A stretch of DNA of 64,000 nt from Komagataeibacter saccharivorans (GTDB lineage: Bacteria > Pseudomonadota > Alphaproteobacteria > Acetobacterales > Acetobacteraceae), in contig NZ_NKTY01000002.1 in assembly GCF_003207825.1 (NCBI RefSeq), forward strand, positions 1 to 64,000, given 5' to 3'. Shown here piece by piece: positions 15,641 to 58,652 of this stretch. Position 1 is the first letter of the stretch, and the number at the start of each line of letters is the position of its first letter. Position numbers and translations under genes: made by a program. The notes below the pieces were generated by a model that worked only from the letters and a program-made list of their open reading frames with translations, was not told the origin of the DNA and did not search any database.

Positions 15641-16072
15641 ATGAGCAATCCAAACAAGCCCCATGTCACGGTCATGCGGTCCCAGCTTTCGCGCGCACGC
15701 GGGCTGGGATCGGGACAGACCGGCGTCGCCCACTGGTGGGCGGAACGCGCTTCGGCCGTGGCCCTTGTGCCGCTGTCGGGCTGGTTCGTGATCCAGGTCT
15801 TCCGCCTTGCTGGCGCATCGCAGCCGGAAGTCGCGAAATGGGGCGCACGCCCCCTGAACACGACCCTGATGCTGTCACTGGTGATCCTGACCTTCTATCA
15901 CACCCAGCTTGGGCTGCAGGTCATCATCGATGACTACGTGCATGGCAAGGCGCACCTGCCTGCCGGGCTGCTGATGAAGGGCATTGTCTTCCTTCTGGGG
16001 CTGTTCGGCACGGTTTCCGTGCTGAAGCTGGCGCTGGCCGGCAGCAGCCGTGGCCGGATCGCTGCCGGCTGA
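15641..16072 (+). CDS. sdhD: Succinate dehydrogenase hydrophobic membrane anchor subunit
   Basis: 143 residues, starting 2 nt after the sdhC stop. It is the second membrane anchor of complex II. It shows the family's HWWAERASAVALVPL segment, then FYHTQLGLQVIIDDYVH, which carries the haem-proximal His and the Asp-Tyr pair of the ubiquinone site. Three transmembrane helices are evident. Tight spacing indicates coupling with sdhC. Confidence 0.95.
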   Translation: MSNPNKPHVTVMRSQLSRARGLGSGQTGVAHWWAERASAVALVPLSGWFVIQVFRLAGASQPEVAKWGARPLNTTLMLSLVILTFYHTQLGLQVIIDDYVHGKAHLPAGLLMKGIVFLLGLFGTVSVLKLALAGSSRGRIAAG

Positions 16073-16171
16073 GCCTTCGCGCCCAGCCCGCACAGAACAT
16101 GACATTCGCGGACCGGCCGGGCCGCAATGCTGCCCGGCCGCTCCGAACGAGCATCGGGACACGTCCAAGAA

Positions 16172-17983
16172 ATGAACGCGACCACTTCACCACTCACCGG
16201 CTCCTACCGGGTTGTCGACCACGCATATGACGTGGTTGTTGTCGGCGCCGGTGGCTCCGGCCTCCGGGCCACGCTGGGCATGGGGGCCGCCGGCCTCAAG
16301 ACCGCCTGCGTGACCAAGGTTTTCCCCACCCGCAGCCATACTGTCGCAGCCCAGGGCGGCATCGGCGCCTCGCTTGGCAACATGGCCGAGGATAACTGGC
16401 GGTGGCACATGTACGATACCGTCAAGGGATCGGACTGGCTGGGCGATCAGGACGCCATCGAATACATGTGCCGCGAAGCGGTGCCCGCCGTGCAGGAACT
16501 GGAGCACATGGGTGTGCCCTTCTCCCGCACGGAAGAGGGCAAGATCTACCAGCGCCCCTTCGGCGGCCACATGCGCAACTATGGCGAAGCCCCGGTGCCC
16601 CGCGCCTGCGCTGCTGCCGACCGTACGGGCCATGCCATCCTGCACACGCTGTACCAGCAGTGCCTGAAGCATAACGTCGAATTCTTTGTCGAATACTTCG
16701 CCATCGACCTGATCATGGATGAAGACGGCGCCTGCCGTGGTGTCATGGCATGGTGTCTGGAAGACGGCACGCTGCATCGTTTCCGCGCCCAGAAGGTGGT
16801 GCTGGCGACGGGCGGGTATGGCCGCGCCTATCATTCGTGCACGTCCGCCCATACCTGCACGGGCGATGGTGGCGGCATGGCGATCCGTGCCGGCATTCCC
16901 ATGCAGGACATGGAATTCGTGCAGTTCCATCCCACCGGCATTTTCCCCGCAGGCTGCCTGCTGACGGAAGGCTGCCGCGGTGAAGGTGGCTACCTGACCA
17001 ATTCCGAGGGCGAGCGCTTCATGGAACGCTATGCCCCCACGGCCAAGGATCTGGCATCGCGTGACGTGGTTTCGCGCGCCATGACCATCGAGATCAACGA
17101 AGGTCGCGGCTGTGGCCCCGAAAAGAACTACATCATGCTCCATCTGGAGCATCTGGGCGCGGAAATCCTGCATGAACGCCTGCCCGGCATTCTGGAAACG
17201 GCGCGTATCTTCGCGGGTATCGACGTGACCAAGGAACCCGTGCCGGTCCTGCCGACGGTGCATTACAACATGGGTGGCATCCCCACCAACTACCATGGCG
17301 AGGTCATCCGCCCCACGGCTGATGATGTCGATGCGGTGGTGCCCGGCCTGATGGCGGTGGGTGAAGCGGCCTGCGTGTCCGTGCATGGCGCGAACCGTCT
17401 TGGCACCAACTCCCTGCTTGACCTTGTGGTGTTCGGCCGTGCCGCAGCCCAGCGCGCTGCCGCCACCATCAAGAGCGAGGAGACGATCCCGCCGCTGCCC
17501 GCCGGCGCCGGTGAAGCCGCGATCGCGCGTTTCGACCGCCTGCGTTACGCCAAGGGCAAGACCCATGTGGCCGACATGCGCAGCAAGCTGCAGCGCACCA
17601 TGCAGAAGCATGCCGCCGTGTTCCGCAACACCGAAAGCCTGGCCCAGGGTGTGGAGAAGATCAAGGAAATCTGGGGCGAACTGCCTGATATCTCGATCAA
17701 TGACCGCTCACTGATCTGGAACAGCGACCTTATGGAAGCGCTGGAGTTCGAGAACCTGCTGGCCAATGCCACCGTCACCATGGCAGGCGCGGATGCCCGC
17801 CACGAAAGCCGGGGTGCCCAGGCACATGACGACTATCCCGACCGTGACGACAAGAACTGGATGAAGCACACCGTCGCCCACATGACCGATGCGGGCGATG
17901 TCACGCTAAGCTACCGCCCCGTGCACATGAAAACGCTTACCGACGATGTGCAGGTCTTCCCCCCCAAGAAGCGCGTCTACTGA
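16172..17983 (+). CDS. sdhA: Succinate dehydrogenase flavoprotein subunit
   Basis: 603 residues from ATG 16172. It oxidises succinate to fumarate using covalently bound FAD. The dinucleotide fold [11 protein letters not shown] is at about 24-34. His56 in [10 protein letters not shown] is the expected covalent FAD attachment site. Substrate-site motifs include [35 protein letters not shown] and [19 protein letters not shown]. The C-terminal KNWMKHTVA segment is standard. It sits about 100 bp downstream of sdhD in the sdhCDAB operon. Confidence 0.98.
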
Positions 17984-51014: not shown

Positions 51015-51620
51015 TCAGTTGGCGCGGCGGCCCGGCTTGCCACTGGCCTTATGCGTTTCAGCCGGGGAATCCTCCGCCGGCCCGTTTTCGTCAGCAGCAG
51101 CGCCCGGCTGCATCATCCGGGCGCTCGCCTCGATCAGTTCGTCCGTCAGGACCAGGCGCGCCTTGCGCATTTCGGCAAAAGGCAGCGCAACCTCGGTCCC
51201 GTCGTCAAGCCGCATCAGGCCATGACCGTCCCGTGCGCCCAGCACGATACCGGCAAAGCGCTTGCGGCCATCAATCGGCATGTTCATTTCGGCGCGGGCG
51301 AGATGCCCGGCGAAACGGTCCCAGTCCTTGGCGCGGGTCAGCGGCCGGTCGATACCGGCCGACGAGACTTCCAGCGTCCATGCACCCGGCAGCGGGTCTT
51401 CCACGTCCAGGATCGCGCCCACCGCATGGCTGATCTGTTCGCAGTCCTCAATGGCGATAAGCGAGCCATCGGCCCGGTCCGCCATGATCTGCACCGTGGG
51501 CGATTCACGCCCCAGCACCGCCACCCGTACGAGTTCAAACCCCATATCGGCCAGCGCGGGCGCGATCATGGCGGCTATGCGGGCATCGAGGCCCGTCAGG
51601 AAAGGCAGATCAGCGTCCAA
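51015..51620 (-). CDS. rimP: Ribosome maturation factor RimP
   Basis: About 201 residues if TTG 51620 is the start; the frame also opens at TTG 51653, and no ATG or clear ribosome-binding site exists at the right distance from the conserved part ([19 protein letters not shown]). It helps 30S assembly. Other family segments are [45 protein letters not shown] and DWDRFAGH. The C-terminal tail is longer than in E. coli. It is the first gene of the nusA-infB operon; the promoter should lie in 51621-51797. Confidence 0.93.
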
Positions 51621-51761
51621 TGCAAAAAAGGCAGCCCTGCGGCCACCCCCCAAAGAAAAAAACCGGAAATGAAGGAATTGTCCGTAACATAGGTCACGCC
51701 ACCCCTGACCGCAAGGACTATATGCAGGCGGCGGGGTTACATTTCCTCTCTACTTATCATC

Positions 51762-51797: not shown

Positions 51798-52436
51798 ATG
51801 ATGCCCTTGCCCACACCGCCGGAAGCGACACGGGAACGCAGCGCACGCCCAGGCAGCCGCAGGCTGGTCGTGGTGGGCCTGATCGCGGCCGTAGTGGCGG
51901 CGGGCGGCCTTGGTTCCGGTGGTTTTCTTACGCCACGCGAAGGGGGGAACGGCAGCGCCACGCCCCCGGTGGCGGCGGAAGCGGGTGGACGTGGCACGGA
52001 CAATGGCGGCCATCTCCAGCTTAATGCACCGGTCCAGAACAGGCCGGACATGATGGGCCAGATGCCCATGATCGCCGCCGACAGGGCGGAAGAAATGCTG
52101 AGCCAGACATCCTACACACCCGAACAGAAGGGTGAGATCATGGCGGCGCTGAAGCGGCGTGAAATCGTTCTGGCGGATATGCCCATGTATGACATGTCGG
52201 GAACCGGCGCGGTGGTGAACGTTCAGTCACTGGGGCTGGTCCAGACGGTGCATCTTGGCCCTCAGCCCAAAAGCGTGATCCTGCCGATCCGCATTGCGGG
52301 AAACGTGACGGTGGCCCCGGCCACCGATCCGGGTCCCACGGGCATACGGACGGGGGCGGTATTCGTGCCCGGCCCCACGCCACTGCCGGTGCTGCTGCGG
52401 GATACTGAGATCGTGATCGGGGTTGTGGTACAATGA
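51798..52436 (+). CDS. Unrecognised membrane-anchored protein, first gene of AAA+ module
   Basis: About 212 residues from ATG 51798 (ATG 51801 also possible). A basic N-terminus (TRERSARPGSRR) precedes one hydrophobic helix (about 22-40), which predicts an N-in, periplasm-facing protein. A Gly/Ala-rich stretch is followed by a Met-rich segment (RPDMMGQMPMIAADRAEEML) and a helix (TPEQKGEIMAALKRR). The C-terminal half is beta-rich with many Val/Pro residues (LVQTVHLGPQPKSVILPI, TGAVFVPGPTPLPVLL). I do not recognise a domain. Its stop overlaps the start of the AAA+ gene (ATGA), so the two proteins are probably made together. Confidence 0.8.
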   Translation: MMPLPTPPEATRERSARPGSRRLVVVGLIAAVVAAGGLGSGGFLTPREGGNGSATPPVAAEAGGRGTDNGGHLQLNAPVQNRPDMMGQMPMIAADRAEEMLSQTSYTPEQKGEIMAALKRREIVLADMPMYDMSGTGAVVNVQSLGLVQTVHLGPQPKSVILPIRIAGNVTVAPATDPGPTGIRTGAVFVPGPTPLPVLLRDTEIVIGVVVQ

Positions 52437-53704
52437 AACCGCTCTATCCGGCCCTGATGGAACGGCTGGTGCCGTTCATCATGGTCATCTTTCTGGTGCT
52501 GGGCAGCCTGCAGGCGGCGATGGCGCTGCATCTTTCACTCGCCAGCCTGCGGCATTTCATGGAATGGTGTGCCCCGGCATATCCGGTCGTGGCTGCGGGC
52601 AGCGCCTTGCTGGCGCTGGCCGGGCTGTTGTTCGAGAGCCGGGCCGAAAAACTGGCCCGCAAGGGAATTCGACGCAGACGGGGATGGATGATGGACGTAC
52701 TGGCCAGGCTGACCAATCGCAACGCGCTGGAGGAAATGCTCGCGCGTGAGCAGAAGGAAACCGTGATCGACGCGGAGGAGCTGGCGGCAAGCCTGCGCGC
52801 GCGCGTGATCGGGCAGGATCAGGTATGCGAGGACGTGGCGACCCAGCTACGCCGCCGCCTGGCGTTGCAGGTGCGCGGCAAACCGGTGGGGATCTTCCTG
52901 CTGGCGGGGCCGCCCGGCACGGGCAAGACCTATCTGGCCAAGCAGCTTGCCCGCCAGCTTGACCGTCCGCTGCTCAATTTCGACATGACGCAGATGAGTT
53001 CGCCCCATGCCGCGACCCAGCTTTTCGGATCGCCCAAGGGATACGTCGGCTCGGACACCTACGGCAAGCTGACGGGCGGGCTGAAGGAAAAGCCCGATGC
53101 GGTGGTGCTTCTGGATGAAATCGAGAAGGCGCATCCCGACGTTTTCAAGAAATTCCTGACCGCATGGAATGATGGCCACGTAACCGAGGCATCGACGGGC
53201 CAGCAGATCTCGACCGTGCGATGCATCTTCATCCTGACATCCAACATCGCCACCGATGCCCTGTCCGAGATCGCGGACCGGCTGGCGGATGAGCCGGACA
53301 AGATGCGTGCCGAATCGGTGGAGGCCCTGCGTCAGGCCGGGTTCGCGCCCGAAGTTCTGAACCGTCTGGACCGCATTTTCGTATTCCGCCCGCTGGAGGG
53401 ACTCGATATCGCGCGCGTATCGGCCCTCGAGATCGAAGCGATGATCGACAGCTACGGGCTGAAAGTGGAAACAGGCGGCATCGACCCGGCCCTGCTGTTC
53501 GAGGTCATGCGCCGGCAGGACCGCATGGGACCGGCCGCCAGTGCGCGTGATCTGGCCCGCTCCATCGAGGACATGATAAGCGACTCGCTCATCACCGCCC
53601 GCCAGCAGGGTGCGAAGCTGGTGCGCGTGGTGAAGAACGAGGACGGGATCACGGCCGAAATCGCCGATGAAGCCAATGGCCAGCGCGCGCGGGTCAGTTC
53701 CTGA
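52433..53704 (+). CDS. Membrane-anchored ClpB-D2-like AAA+ ATPase
   Basis: 423 residues. Two hydrophobic helices (about 12-32 and 49-67) are followed by one AAA+ domain of the Clp/HSP100 D2 type. Walker A is GPPGTGKT (159-166) and Walker B is VVLLDEIEKAHPDVF (224-238). The aromatic pore loop KGYVG (202-206), sensor 1 ILTSN (267-271) and the FAPEVLNRLDRIFVF box with the expected arginine finger are present. The C-terminal small domain has a SARDLARSIEDMI sensor-2 segment. All catalytic parts are intact, so it should be an ATP-driven unfoldase held on the inner membrane, facing the cytoplasm. No protease or second AAA domain is fused. It overlaps the upstream gene by 4 bp. No named family comes to mind. 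Confidence 0.88.
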   Translation: MKPLYPALMERLVPFIMVIFLVLGSLQAAMALHLSLASLRHFMEWCAPAYPVVAAGSALLALAGLLFESRAEKLARKGIRRRRGWMMDVLARLTNRNALEEMLAREQKETVIDAEELAASLRARVIGQDQVCEDVATQLRRRLALQVRGKPVGIFLLAGPPGTGKTYLAKQLARQLDRPLLNFDMTQMSSPHAATQLFGSPKGYVGSDTYGKLTGGLKEKPDAVVLLDEIEKAHPDVFKKFLTAWNDGHVTEASTGQQISTVRCIFILTSNIATDALSEIADRLADEPDKMRAESVEALRQAGFAPEVLNRLDRIFVFRPLEGLDIARVSALEIEAMIDSYGLKVETGGIDPALLFEVMRRQDRMGPAASARDLARSIEDMISDSLITARQQGAKLVRVVKNEDGITAEIADEANGQRARVSS

Positions 53705-53720
53705 TCCATGCCCGCGCCGT

Positions 53721-53764
53721 CCAGCCCGTTGCCTTTACCCGACGATGGGGCTGGTCGGCTTTTT
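53721..53764 (+). promoter_or_regulatory. Overlapping alternative hairpins before the third module gene
   Basis: One stem pairs 53721-53727 with 53748-53754. A second, incompatible stem pairs 53739-53743 with 53754-53758 and is followed by CTTTTT. This could be a weak terminator or attenuator between the ATPase gene and 53825. Confidence 0.35.
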
Positions 53765-53824
53765 ACAACATTTTCCTGCCCCGACCGGATGACGGGCATG
53801 GCTACCTGCGGCATGGACTGCTGA

Positions 53825-54784
53825 ATGTCTGCTTTTTCGCGTTTATGGCATCGCGCGCCCCTGTGGCGGATGAGCCTTTACACCATCTTCCCTTTCCTGC
53901 TGCTGGCGGTCATTTTTCCGCCTGCCTATCTGATCCGCCTGCTGCCCGCGCTGAAGCCGATTACCGCCAGCATCCATAACCATCTGGGCATGGTGGATGA
54001 GCCACCGGCAACCGATAATGCCGCAGCCGATGGCGGCGGCGGAAACGGCGGTGGTGGCGACGGCGCGGTCACCATGCTGCCCATTACCGATCGCCTGACA
54101 AACTCCATCCCGTTTGCCGGGCGCGTTCTGCCGTTACCGGCGGGTGTGTGGCATCCGGTCATGAGCGTGGTTAACGGCCCGCATGGCGAGGTTCTGGAAA
54201 ATATTCTGGTCCGGGTCGAAGGCCATGTCGTGACCGGACTGATCGGCGCGGAAGGCAATATCCAGCCCGTGCCCGAATCCGCGATCACCAACATCGATTC
54301 AACGTGTCATGACGACCGCAATTTCATGTCCCGCGTGATCTCGGCCCATCCCCCGGCCATGGAATGCTGGTTCACCGCTGCGGTCTATCCCTCTTCCATC
54401 AACCGCACGGCTGTCATCGCCAACCGCCTGAAGGAAGAAGGGTTCATCCTGCCGCCGGTCTTCCTGAAAACCGGGTGGAGTTACAGCCAGCCCGCCGGGG
54501 ACCATAACGTCAATGTCGAGACGGTGACGATGTTCCTCAACCCCGTCAACACGGACGCCACCAAGGCACTGCGATCACCGGAAAGCTGGACGAAGGAAAA
54601 CCTTGCCCAGCAACCGGCGGCCAGTGATTTCGTAAAGCGTACGGACACATGGATCGCGGCCTGGGCACCGGTGCTGCATGATGGCTTCAATGGCGACATG
54701 CTGGCCACCAACGAGGCGCAGCGCGCCCGCCTGTCGCGCGATCCGGCCGCCCCGTTACCCGGACAGGGCAGCCCGCTGGACTGA
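53825..54784 (+). CDS. Unrecognised membrane-anchored protein, third gene of AAA+ module
   Basis: 319 residues. A basic start (SRLWHRAPLWR) and one hydrophobic helix (about 17-38) predict an N-in anchor with a periplasmic C-terminal part. A Gly/Asn/Asp-rich flexible linker lies at about 60-80 (DGGGGNGGGGDG). The rest looks folded, with Trp, Cys (STCHDDRN, MECWF) and mixed beta/helix pattern (GVWHPVMSVVNGPHGEVLENILVRVEG), but matches no family I know. It is 120 bp after the AAA+ gene on the same strand. The C-terminus is Pro/Ala/Gly-rich. I infer it works with the ATPase because of shared orientation and topology. Confidence 0.75.
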   Translation: MSAFSRLWHRAPLWRMSLYTIFPFLLLAVIFPPAYLIRLLPALKPITASIHNHLGMVDEPPATDNAAADGGGGNGGGGDGAVTMLPITDRLTNSIPFAGRVLPLPAGVWHPVMSVVNGPHGEVLENILVRVEGHVVTGLIGAEGNIQPVPESAITNIDSTCHDDRNFMSRVISAHPPAMECWFTAAVYPSSINRTAVIANRLKEEGFILPPVFLKTGWSYSQPAGDHNVNVETVTMFLNPVNTDATKALRSPESWTKENLAQQPAASDFVKRTDTWIAAWAPVLHDGFNGDMLATNEAQRARLSRDPAAPLPGQGSPLD

Positions 54785-54840: not shown

Positions 54841-55737
54841 TCAGCCCTGTCGCAATACGTCCGATATCTCGATCAGGAAATCCAGAACGGTGCGGGTGCG
54901 CAGCGGCAGCGTACGCGGCCCGGTATGCACCGCATAAAAGGGCAGTTCGGGAATCGTCCATTCCGGCAGCAGGCATTTCAGCCGCCCCGCCGCAATATCT
55001 TCTTCCACCTGGAAGGCAGGCAACATGCCGATGCCAAGACCCGCCCGGACGGCCTGCAGAACCGCTTCGCTGCTATTGGCGCGGAAGGGACCGCTGGCCG
55101 CAACCGTGGTCTCGCTTTCCCCCTTGCGCGCAAACTGCCAGTCATGGCGCGTGCCGCCATAGCTGTAGGCAATACAGGGATGGTTGAGCAGGTCGCGCGG
55201 ATGTTCGGGCGTACCACGGCGGGCCAGATAATCGGTGGAAGCGATCACGCAACGATGCACGGACCCCAGACGACGGGCGATCAGTGATCCTTCCGCGATG
55301 GAGCCGATGCGGACAGCAAGATCGAGTCCCTCCTCCACCAGATCACCGAATCCGTCACGCATGACCAGTTCGACCGACAGGTCGGGATGTTCTTCCAGCA
55401 ATCTGCCAAGCCGACTGGTCAGGTACAGGCCAAATGCCGTTGTAACACCCAGCCGCACCAGCCCCGAAACCGAAGCCCGGCGGCGGCCCAGCGCCGTTTC
55501 CGCCGTTTCAAGGATTTCCAGCACTTCATAGGCGTGGGGCAGCAGGCTGCGCCCGTCTTCCGTCATCATCAGGCTGCGCGTGGTGCGGGCGAACAGCGTT
55601 GCGCCGTAATGGGCCTCAAGCAGGGCGATATGACGCGAAATGGTCGGCTGACTGGCCCCAGTTTCCCGCGAAACAGCAGAGAACGATCCCGTCGCCGCTA
55701 CACGGACAAAGCTGTGCAAAGCAGAAAGCAGATCCAT
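54841..55737 (-). CDS. LysR-family transcriptional regulator
   Basis: 298 residues. The N-terminal winged helix (about 1-60) reads LHSFVRVAATGSFSAVSRETGASQPTISRHIALLEAHYGATLFART. The effector-binding domain follows (LVRLGVTTAFGLYLTSRLG, GLDLAVRIG, VLQAVRAGLGIGMLPAFQVEEDIAAGRL). It belongs to the common group with single-residue variations of TTRSLMMTEDG. It is convergent with the AAA+ module, with 56 bp between stops, and has no adjacent metabolic target, so its effector is unknown. Confidence 0.93.
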   Translation of the reverse strand: MDLLSALHSFVRVAATGSFSAVSRETGASQPTISRHIALLEAHYGATLFARTTRSLMMTEDGRSLLPHAYEVLEILETAETALGRRRASVSGLVRLGVTTAFGLYLTSRLGRLLEEHPDLSVELVMRDGFGDLVEEGLDLAVRIGSIAEGSLIARRLGSVHRCVIASTDYLARRGTPEHPRDLLNHPCIAYSYGGTRHDWQFARKGESETTVAASGPFRANSSEAVLQAVRAGLGIGMLPAFQVEEDIAAGRLKCLLPEWTIPELPFYAVHTGPRTLPLRTRTVLDFLIEISDVLRQG

Positions 55738-55881
55738 GAGGCCCCATCACATCCGGATATGTTATTACATAAACATAGCTTTAAACGGCATCTGATTTAT
55801 ACACAATACAGAGAAAAGACACCGCGGATATGTGCGTAACGCAACGGTACCTATGCTTTCCGCGCATAGATGGTTTCTGAC

Positions 55882-55917
55882 AAAAAAACGGCGGCCCGCA
55901 TGATACGGGCCGCCGTT
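55882..55917 (-). terminator. Terminator of acnA
   Basis: A perfect 12-bp stem (55887-55898 with 55906-55917) followed on the minus strand by a run of T (A run 55882-55888). Confidence 0.9.
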
Positions 55918-55958
55918 CTGTTACTTCATTCCGGCAGGGACCGGAATGGGCCGGATGG

Positions 55959-58652
55959 TCAGGCCGCCTGCGTCATGCCACGCAGCACGGTCTGGAGAAT
56001 GCCGCCATTGCGGAAATACTCCACCTCGTCCAGCGTATCGACACGGCACAGCAGGGGAACGTCCTGCCTGGAGCCATCGGCGCGGGTGATGGTCATCGTC
56101 ATCGTCATGCGCGGCGTGATCTTGTCCAGACCGCGGATTTCGAAGGTTTCATCGCCCTTCAGGCCCAGCGTCTTGCGCGTCGTGCCTTCCTGGAACAGCA
56201 GCGGCAGCACGCCCATGCCCACCAGGTTGGAACGGTGGATACGCTCGAAGCTTTCCGCAACCACGGCGCGCACGCCCAGCAGCAGGGTGCCCTTGGCCGC
56301 CCAGTCACGCGAGGAACCCATGCCGTATTCCTTGCCGCCGATCACGACCAGGGGCACGCCCTCTTTCTTGTATTCCATCGCCACATCATAGATGGAGGCT
56401 TCCTTCCCGTCCGGGAAGTGCTTGGACACGCCCCCTTCGGTTCCGGGCACCATCTCGTTCTTGATGCGGATGTTGGCGAAGGTGCCACGCACCATCACGC
56501 GGTCATTGCCGCGACGCGAACCGTAGGAGTTGAAGTCCTTCTTGGCCACGCCATGGGCTTCAAGATACTTGCCCGCGGGCGAGCTTTCCTTGATCGCGCC
56601 GGCAGGCGAGATGTGGTCGGTCGTGATGTTGTCACCCAGCAGGGCCAGCAGGCGCGCACCGACAATGTCACCACGTGGCTTGGGCTCGGGGGTGATGTCC
56701 TGGAAATACGGCGGGTCCTGCACATAGGTGGAGGACGCATCCCACTTGTAGGTCTCGGAACCGGTGGCGACTTTCAGCGCCTGCCATTCCTTCGTACCCT
56801 GGCTTACGTGCTTGTAGCGGTTGATGAACTCTTCGCGCGTGATCGCGGAACCCATCAGGGCGGCGATCTCGTGGTTGGTCGGCCAGATGTCCTTCAGGTA
56901 CACCGGCTTGCCATCCTTGGAAGTGCCCAGCGGCGCGGTGGTGATGTCCTCACGCATCGTGCCCAGCAGGGAGTAGGCGACAACCAGCGGCGGGCTGGCC
57001 AGATAGTTGGCCCGCACGTTGGGCGAGATACGCCCTTCGAAGTTACGGTTGCCGGACAGAACCGAAACCGCGACCAGCTTGTTGTTCTCGATCGCATCGA
57101 CGATGTGATCTTCCAGCGGGCCGGAGTTACCGATACAGGTCGTGCAGCCATAACCGACGGTGTTGAAGCCCATCGCGTCCAGCTCATCCTGCAGGCCGGC
57201 ACGGTTCAGGTAATCCGTCACCACCTGCGATCCGGGTGCAAGCGAGGTCTTGACCCACGGCTTGGGCTTCAGGCCCAGCGCACGCGCCTTTTTCGCCACC
57301 AGACCAGCCGCGATCAGCACGGCGGGGTTGGAGGTGTTGGTGCACGACGTAATGGCCGCGATCACCACGTCGCCATGGCCGATCTCGTAATTCGTGCCAG
57401 CAACCTTCGCCTTCTTGTCCTTCTCGGCCGCGGGCACGCCAAGGCTGCCGGTCAGCTCGGTCTCGAACGCCTTGTCCGCACCCTTCAGCACGACGCGGTC
57501 CTGCGGGCGCTTGGGGCCTGCGATGGACGGCACGATGGTGGACAGGTCCAGTTCCAGCGTATCGGTAAAGACGGGGTGTTCCGAATGGGCGTGGCGGAAC
57601 ATTTCCTGCGCCTTCAGGTATTCTTCCGTCAGCTTGATGCGGTGTTCTTCACGACCGGTCTGGCGCAGGTAATCCAGCGTCAGGTCATCAACAGGGAAGA
57701 AGCCGCAGGTCGCGCCATATTCCGGGGCCATGTTGGCGATGGTCGCGCGGTCGGCCACCGGCAGGTGGTCAAGGGCGGGGCCGAAGAACTCGACGAACTT
57801 GCCGACAACGCCCTTCTTGCGCAGCATCTGGGTCACGGTCAGCACCAGATCGGTCGCCGTCGCCCCTTCGGGCAGCTTGCCCGTCATCTTGAAGCCGATC
57901 ACGTCGGGGATCAGCATGGCGATGGGCTGGCCCAGCATCGCGGCTTCCGCCTCGATCCCGCCAACGCCCCAGCCCAGCACGCCCATGCCGTTCACCATGG
58001 TGGTGTGGCTGTCGGTGCCGAACAGGGTGTCGGGATAGGCATAATCCTTGCCGCCCACGTTCGCCGTCCATACCGCCTGCGCGATATATTCAAGGTTCAC
58101 CTGGTGGCAGATACCCGTGCCCGGCGGGACGACGGAGAAGTTTTCGAACGCTTCCTGACCCCAGCGCAGGAAGGCGTAACGTTCGCCGTTGCGCTCGAAC
58201 TCGATGGTCACGTTGTCCTGCAGCGCTTCGGGCGAGCCCGCCACGTCCACCATGACCGAGTGATCGATCACAAGATTGACGGGAACCAGCGGGTTCACCT
58301 TCTGCGGGTCGCCCTTGAGCTTGAGGATACCGTCACGCATCGCGGCCAGATCGACCACGGCGGGAACGCCGGTGAAATCCTGCATGAGGATACGCGCGGG
58401 CTTGAAGGGAACTTCCTTCGTGCTGCGCCCTTCCTTCAGCCATTCGGCGATGGCCTTGGCGTCCTCTACCGAGTAGGAATGCCCGTCCTCGAACCGCAGC
58501 ACGTTCTCCAGCAGCACTTTCAGGCTGACCGGCAGGCGGCTTACGGAGCCGATGGTCTTTTCAGCTTCCGGGATTGAGAAATAATGATAGGTCTTGCCGT
58601 CCACATTCAGTGTACGGCCCGTTTTCAGTGAGTCGTGCCCAACCGTCTTCAT
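55959..58652 (-). CDS. acnA: Aconitate hydratase A
   Basis: 897 residues, the AcnA/IRP length. It isomerises citrate to isocitrate through a [4Fe-4S] cluster whose Cys ligands lie in SCTNTSNP and [14 protein letters not shown]. The N-terminal [19 protein letters not shown] and the C-terminal swivel domain ([59 protein letters not shown]) are standard. GGAGG precedes ATG 58652. It is divergent from ccmA, an association also seen in other alphaproteobacteria. Confidence 0.98.

Follow-up and report, generated by a model that had tools for sequence, protein, structure and literature searches.

What does a ClpB-type ATPase do when it is anchored in a membrane, carries no protease and is encoded between two single-anchor membrane proteins? 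This question is raised by three genes in a 64,000-nucleotide stretch of DNA from Komagataeibacter saccharivorans (contig NZ_NKTY01000002.1, positions 1 to 64,000; hereafter the window). We call the genes p1, p2 and p3. p2 encodes a membrane-anchored ATPase with a single HSP100 D2-type AAA+ domain, and p1 and p3 encode proteins with one transmembrane (TM) segment and a predicted envelope domain each. The open reading frame (ORF) coordinates agree with the layout given in an earlier note on this DNA, p1 and p2 overlapping by 4 bp (ATGA) and p3 following in the same direction, 120 bp after the end of p2. Comparison across genomes supports the view that p1 and the motor of p2 have been lost together within the family Acetobacteraceae.

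Coupled loss of p1 and the p2 motor

The comparison covered 116 loci, namely the window and 115 fetched loci, of which 110 have p2 and six lack it (p3 paralogues or a contig edge). p1 and p2 lie on the same strand in all 103 loci that have both, and p2 and p3 stand together on the same strand in 110 loci, a constancy which indicates that the module is not a chance arrangement. Detection of p1 and an intact Walker A pattern in p2 agreed in 110/110 loci, both being present in 103 and neither in seven (genomes G158, G663, G061, G136, G070, G116 and G619); the p1 of G101, which lies in two frames, was counted as present. G953, from a small-genome genus, was sought as a possible exception and has both p1 and an intact motor. 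The Walker B, pore-loop or sensor patterns failed in L063, L197, L248 and L251 despite an intact Walker A, and inspection found mild changes in L063 and L248 and a split frame in L251.

In the seven decayed loci, 170-275 bp separate p2 from its divergent neighbour rimP, versus a median of 800 bp (648-1885) where p1 is present (90 loci). A relaxed search for p1 remnants in the seven loci returned nothing convincing (best E-value 0.20, not adjoining p2). The shortened distance and the lack of a remnant indicate that p1 was deleted rather than merely diverged. Each of the two states, presence of p1 and intactness of the motor, needs at least four changes on both a FastTree tree of p3 (110 rows) and a NusA tree (97 rows), and opposite states occur in close relatives (G116 versus G029; G619 versus G600 and G608; G158 and G663 versus G101). 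As read from the sequences, p1 is coupled to the motor within the family and p3 is independent of the state of the motor.

What remains of the decayed p2 was read from an alignment of 107 of the 110 rows (L070, L248 and L251 excluded). The Walker A Lys is kept in all seven decayed proteins and the next Thr in one; the Walker B Asp-Glu pair stands in order in 0/7 and is swapped to Glu-Asp in G158 and G663. The sensor-1 Asn is retained in 1/7, as is the pore-loop Tyr204, which 99 of 100 intact-motor rows keep, and R311 and R372 are each retained in 3/7. These losses make it likely, not proven, that ATP hydrolysis has been lost. The motor-decayed p2 genes of G158 and G663 have a nonsynonymous rate (dN) of 0.016 and a synonymous rate (dS) of 0.289, and their dN/dS of 0.057 over 427 codons indicates purifying selection; the p3 genes of the same pair give 0.058, and the ratio for p2 in two live pairs is 0.044 and 0.091. 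Identity to the consensus from the pore loop to Walker B is 15-38% in decayed p2 versus 90-95% in four live comparisons, and over residues 276-300 it is 4-32% versus 60-80%. The corresponding values are 48-75% versus 65-98% before Walker A and 40-51% versus 65-84% in the lid. From the purifying selection and these regional identities, it seems that a pseudo-ATPase scaffold is retained together with p3.

In a sample of 200 Acetobacteraceae genomes, p3 was found in 49 and p2 (E-value at most 1e-60) in 46, and p3 was present in 46/46 of the latter. The three genomes with p3 only comprise G049, where the locus meets a contig edge, and G061 and G136, where p2 is degenerate. In the order sample, the p3 profile matched in 107 of 200 genomes, in a few of them solely to p3-like paralogues. 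The p2 profile at an E-value of at most 1e-70 matched in 2/385 genomes of the class sample, both Acetobacteraceae, and in 1/299 genomes of the phylum sample, the window's own; these class and phylum searches scored the best four or five first-look candidates from each genome and may have overlooked weak or decayed relatives. The earlier note's premise that the three genes travel together holds within the family, where 103 of the 110 loci with p2 also have p1. Its suggestion of envelope quality control does not fit a general system of that kind, because p2 turned up almost exclusively in a single family. Queried with the p1 and p3 sequences of the window, 72,556 plasmid records gave no match at an E-value of at most 1e-5, a search which missed the Microvirga p3-like anchor described below, visible only with the p3 profile; p2 matched 2131 plasmid records, of which 10 were inspected.

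The three proteins and their relatives

p2 possesses the core features of a D2-type AAA+ ATPase, that is, Walker A, Walker B, an aromatic pore loop and conserved arginines. In a 28-row alignment, which includes the window protein and the Microvirga protein, its motor residues other than K202 and L312 are either invariant or conserved in 90% or more of the rows; sensor 1, sensor 2 and the likely arginine finger (R311) are labels that we assume from the similarity to ClpB. The best NCBIfam match is the ClpB model (3.2e-52), covering positions 535-848 of 853 and hence the second AAA domain only, and the ClpA model (7.1e-49) matches over the second domain of ClpA. The Pfam Torsin model matches weakly, below its cut-off, and the PDB matches include human CLPB. 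Hydropathy places two N-terminal TM helices ahead of the one AAA domain, a feature of FtsH. The earlier description of p2 as an ATPase with two N-terminal membrane helices and a complete single HSP100 D2 domain is thus borne out by hydropathy, motifs and the ClpB model. Since a basic stretch follows the second TM segment, we take the ATPase domain to be cytoplasmic. In a general scan for HSP100 motifs, with 80 loci listed, L077 was the sole short protein that resembles p2 and has a TM segment; L103 (519 amino acids) runs off a contig end, and the other listed loci are longer frames.

The bacterial HSP100 proteins ClpA/B/C are soluble unfoldases built of two rings, and the textbook example of an AAA machine anchored in the membrane is FtsH. 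p2 shares Walker A and B, the aromatic pore loop and the sensor and arginine residues with ClpB and the D2 domain of ClpA. In contrast, the class I architecture of ClpA/B/C, with an N-domain and two AAA domains, is not found in p2, whose 423 amino acids hold the D2 region only, with no room for an N-domain or a D1 middle domain; in addition, p2 has two N-terminal TM segments and two envelope partners in its operon. FtsH has two N-terminal TM helices, a short external loop and a cytoplasmic AAA ring, and p2 would be alike in topology. However, the AAA domain of p2 is of the HSP100 D2 type (the FtsH model reaches only 0.001), and the p2 sequence contains no HExxH zinc protease motif and terminates after the AAA lid. 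The module shares its motor with ClpB/ClpA and its probable topology with FtsH, but lacks a defining feature of each, having one AAA domain and no protease. Skd3/human CLPB and the torsins are, like p2, single-ring members of the HSP100 D2 group, but their partners are different from p1 and p3. According to the available parts of the sources, Skd3/human CLPB resides in the mitochondrial intermembrane space and carries ankyrin repeats (PMC7343390, PMC9934407), and the torsins are located in the endoplasmic reticulum (PMC5425593). None of the titles and abstracts in the literature covered, to which subscription papers did not belong, describes the module, and neither nusA nor an AAA ATPase is named in the available portions of the main texts of PMC8602642 and PMC12041372.

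For p1 and p3, searches of Pfam, NCBIfam and PDB gave no significant sequence match. Basic residues at their N-termini lead us to read both as N-in proteins with a probably periplasmic domain. In the AlphaFold model, the envelope domain of p1 combines two short helices with beta strands, and the C-terminal residue of p1 is Gln in 99 of 103 loci. p1 is the faster evolving of the two overlapping genes in the one pair compared, with a dN/dS of 0.30 versus 0.09 for p2. The two-frame p1 of G101 (L057 11299-11846), beside an intact p2, represents either a loss intermediate or a sequencing error. L248 (G591) and L251 (G165) are divergent trios that contain all three genes; their p1 is highly diverged (1e-9 in L248), and in L251 p2 is split across two frames.

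In a 37-row alignment of p3, L7, W8, A11, W14 and R15 of the anchor motif are at least 90% conserved, and the PLPxGxW motif, Cys161 and Cys181 are invariant. The fold is probably Mog1/PsbP-like (an alpha/beta/alpha sandwich), and the domain is part of a broader set found in alphaproteobacteria. p3 has no sequence match to the Mog1/PsbP-like domains of PsbP, DcrB and the Eag chaperones, from which it differs in its N-terminal membrane anchor, its invariant Cys pair and its PLPxGxW motif. The earlier note had given p1 and p3 one N-in anchor each and no known family; the single TM segments and the lack of sequence matches stand, and the second part needs amending for p3 in view of its probable fold. 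That note had also named homology of p1 or p3 to a secretion or conjugation system as a reason for doubt, and the Pfam, NCBIfam, PDB and plasmid searches returned none.

Several p3-like proteins occur in other settings. Paralogues at L065 9118-10065 (G092) and L071 9098-10264 (G056) stand apart from the trio, which both genomes also carry. L250 has two p3-like domains with DUF2061 segments in one frame, and L249 has a p3-like domain with DUF2061 segments in two overlapping frames, one of which scores under the Pfam cut-off. At L247 3763-5235, a p3-like domain follows a stretch that may resemble a periplasmic ClpP-class protein, a likeness for which Pfam and PDB searches gave no confirmation. 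In other alphaproteobacteria, p3-like proteins adjoin FecR-domain proteins at L272 and L278 and pores of two-partner secretion, of the ShlB/FhaC type, at L272 and L276.

A relative of p2 outside the family, the AAA ATPase WP_203447015.1, was found on a plasmid of Microvirga sp. VF16 among the plasmid matches listed. It is 45% identical to p2 in the alignment, shares its two N-terminal TM segments and keeps the Walker A and Walker B motifs intact, with GYSG as pore loop. An unannotated plus-strand frame directly after it (L037, about 16001-16192) matches positions 5-53 of the p3 profile (6.7e-7), includes the anchor motif and stops before any envelope domain. This frame supports an ancient link of p2 with the anchor of p3.

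A possible remodelling machine and the rival readings

We tentatively favour, at somewhat less than an even chance, the reading of the trio as a protease-free inner-membrane remodelling machine of FtsH-like topology, in which p1 partners the working motor and p3 the membrane scaffold. p2 would form an HSP100-type ring on the cytoplasmic face, each subunit tethered by two TM helices, and its pore loop would grip a polypeptide and pull it toward the cytoplasm, by which a membrane or membrane-linked protein would be extracted or unfolded. As the partner of the working motor, p1 may be a membrane cofactor or adaptor, or the client itself. p3 would join the membrane scaffold of p2 through its conserved anchor, and its envelope domain would stay useful when the motor is dead. 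We infer the topology, ring assembly, contacts, pulling and pulling direction. More doubtful, to our judgement, is the broader proposal of a membrane-tethered, protease-free HSP100 class, mostly of Acetobacteraceae, in which p1 is tied to the motor, the loss of the motor has occurred on some four or more occasions and a pseudo-ATPase scaffold has been kept by selection with an anchored Mog1/PsbP-like protein. If true, a membrane-fixed single-ring HSP100 with envelope partners and without a protease would be another way of pulling membrane proteins. The natural motor-decayed, p1-less variants split two functions of one module and offer ready-made genetic controls.

Several points weigh against the remodelling machine. 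The opposite-state comparisons comprise three well-supported independent pairs, all in the expected direction, and the sign test gives a p of 0.25, which cannot be lower because three pairs are too few for significance. The dN/dS of decayed p2 comes from one pair, G061/G136 being saturated at synonymous sites. Given the Walker A Lys in all seven decayed proteins, the swapped Walker B acids and the remaining R311 and R372, nucleotide binding or weak hydrolysis may still be possible in decayed p2. That some genomes can do without pulling is shown by the decay of the motor with p3 surviving. Finally, when the p1 and p3 profiles were compared with all 469 frames of at least 40 amino acids in the 31 kb around the intact-motor Microvirga p2, p1 was undetected (best profile E-value 0.44). 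Hence p1 either is not required by every such p2 or sits elsewhere, and Microvirga is, as far as the sequence goes, an exception outside the family to the coupling of p1 and motor.

The envelope domains of both p1 and p3 would also suit an assembly or insertion motor, with p2 powering the maturation of an envelope enzyme or its translocation outward and p1 and p3 acting as periplasmic assembly factors. Bcs1 and MoxR-type ATPases are models for such a motor. The probable fold of p3 is moreover common to the Eag chaperones, which, in the available parts of PMC7773334 and PMC12881460, hold TM segments. However, p2 is an HSP100 D2 protein with a pulling-type pore loop, and the one candidate client compared by co-occurrence, pyrroloquinoline quinone (PQQ)-dependent alcohol dehydrogenase (TIGR03075), shows a distribution that does not follow that of the module: it was present in 3/11 live-trio, 0/7 decayed-motor and 2/6 p3-less genomes sampled, and the link is not supported. 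We regard an assembly motor as an unlikely though serious alternative.

The joint loss of p1 and motor could also follow if p1 were the substrate of the p2 motor, which would remodel or remove it, so that the two lose their use at the same time, with the p2 scaffold and p3 doing the lasting job. The two-frame p1 beside an intact p2 in G101 looks as if p1 goes first, and the faster evolution of p1 also speaks for p1 as substrate. On the other hand, the conserved C-terminal Gln and the confidently folded domain suggest a specific partner role, and Microvirga has an intact motor without a detectable p1; on balance p1 as substrate appears improbable. A role of the trio in defence, against phages or otherwise, with a Dodola-like ATPase that is Clp-like and single-ring, is very hard to credit. 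The PADLOC models PDC-M37B (8e-25) and DolB (3.9e-21) do match p2, but the ClpB model fits it far better, neither p1 nor p3 has a PADLOC match at an E-value of at most 0.01, and the locus adjoins rimP in 97/110 loci and follows lineage, unlike defence islands.

Genomic place and neighbouring genes

Table 1 Features of the p1-p2-p3 locus in the window (positions are those of the window).
Feature	Position	Strand	Description and basis
p1	51798..52436	+	ORF, 212 amino acids; single-anchor protein with envelope domain
p1 TM segment	51864..51920	+	Residues 23-41; hydropathy; AlphaFold confidence low there
p1 folded domain	52047..52433	+	Residues 84-212; AlphaFold predicted local distance difference test (pLDDT) mostly >90; conserved C-terminal Gln
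p2	52433..53704	+	ORF, 423 amino acids; membrane-anchored single HSP100 D2-type AAA+ ATPase
p2 TM1	52466..52522	+	Residues 12-30; hydropathy
p2 TM2	52577..52633	+	Residues 49-67; hydropathy; basic stretch after
p2 Walker A GPPGTGKT	52907..52930	+	Residues 159-166; alignment
p2 pore loop KGYVG	53036..53050	+	Residues 202-206; alignment
p2 Walker B LLDEIEK	53108..53128	+	Residues 226-232; alignment
p2 Asn271	53243..53245	+	Alignment; presumably sensor 1
p2 NRLDR box	53360..53374	+	Residues 310-314; alignment; includes R311
p2 Arg372	53546..53548	+	Alignment; presumably sensor 2
p3	53825..54784	+	ORF, 319 amino acids; single-anchor protein, probable Mog1/PsbP-like envelope domain
p3 LWxxAxxWR motif and TM segment	53843..53941	+	Motif from residue 7, TM segment 21-39; alignment, hydropathy
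p3 envelope domain	54092..54697	+	Residues 90-291; includes PLPxGxW motif, Cys161 and Cys181
rimP	51015..51653	-	Neighbour outside the module; head of the divergent rimP-nusA-infB group

The neighbours on the opposite strand are RimP, NusA and IF-2, each matched by NCBIfam models above their cut-offs. RimP was detected at 97 of the 116 loci and is divergent to p2 in 97/97. The 19 loci without RimP are the six without p2, L187, which is cut by a contig end, and 12 deep-branching trios (L060, L062-L064, L066-L069, L235, L248, L251 and L252). Since these 12 are located elsewhere or on short contigs, the place beside rimP is fixed in only part of the family.

On the 3' side of the trio, the minus strand of the window (54841-58652) encodes a LysR-type regulator and the aconitate hydratase AcnA; the gene family of the regulator is present at 9/38 compared loci. 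L072 10825-12435 encodes a protein that joins a solute-binding domain to an ABC permease domain and the gene family of which lies on the opposite strand downstream of the trio at 21 loci.

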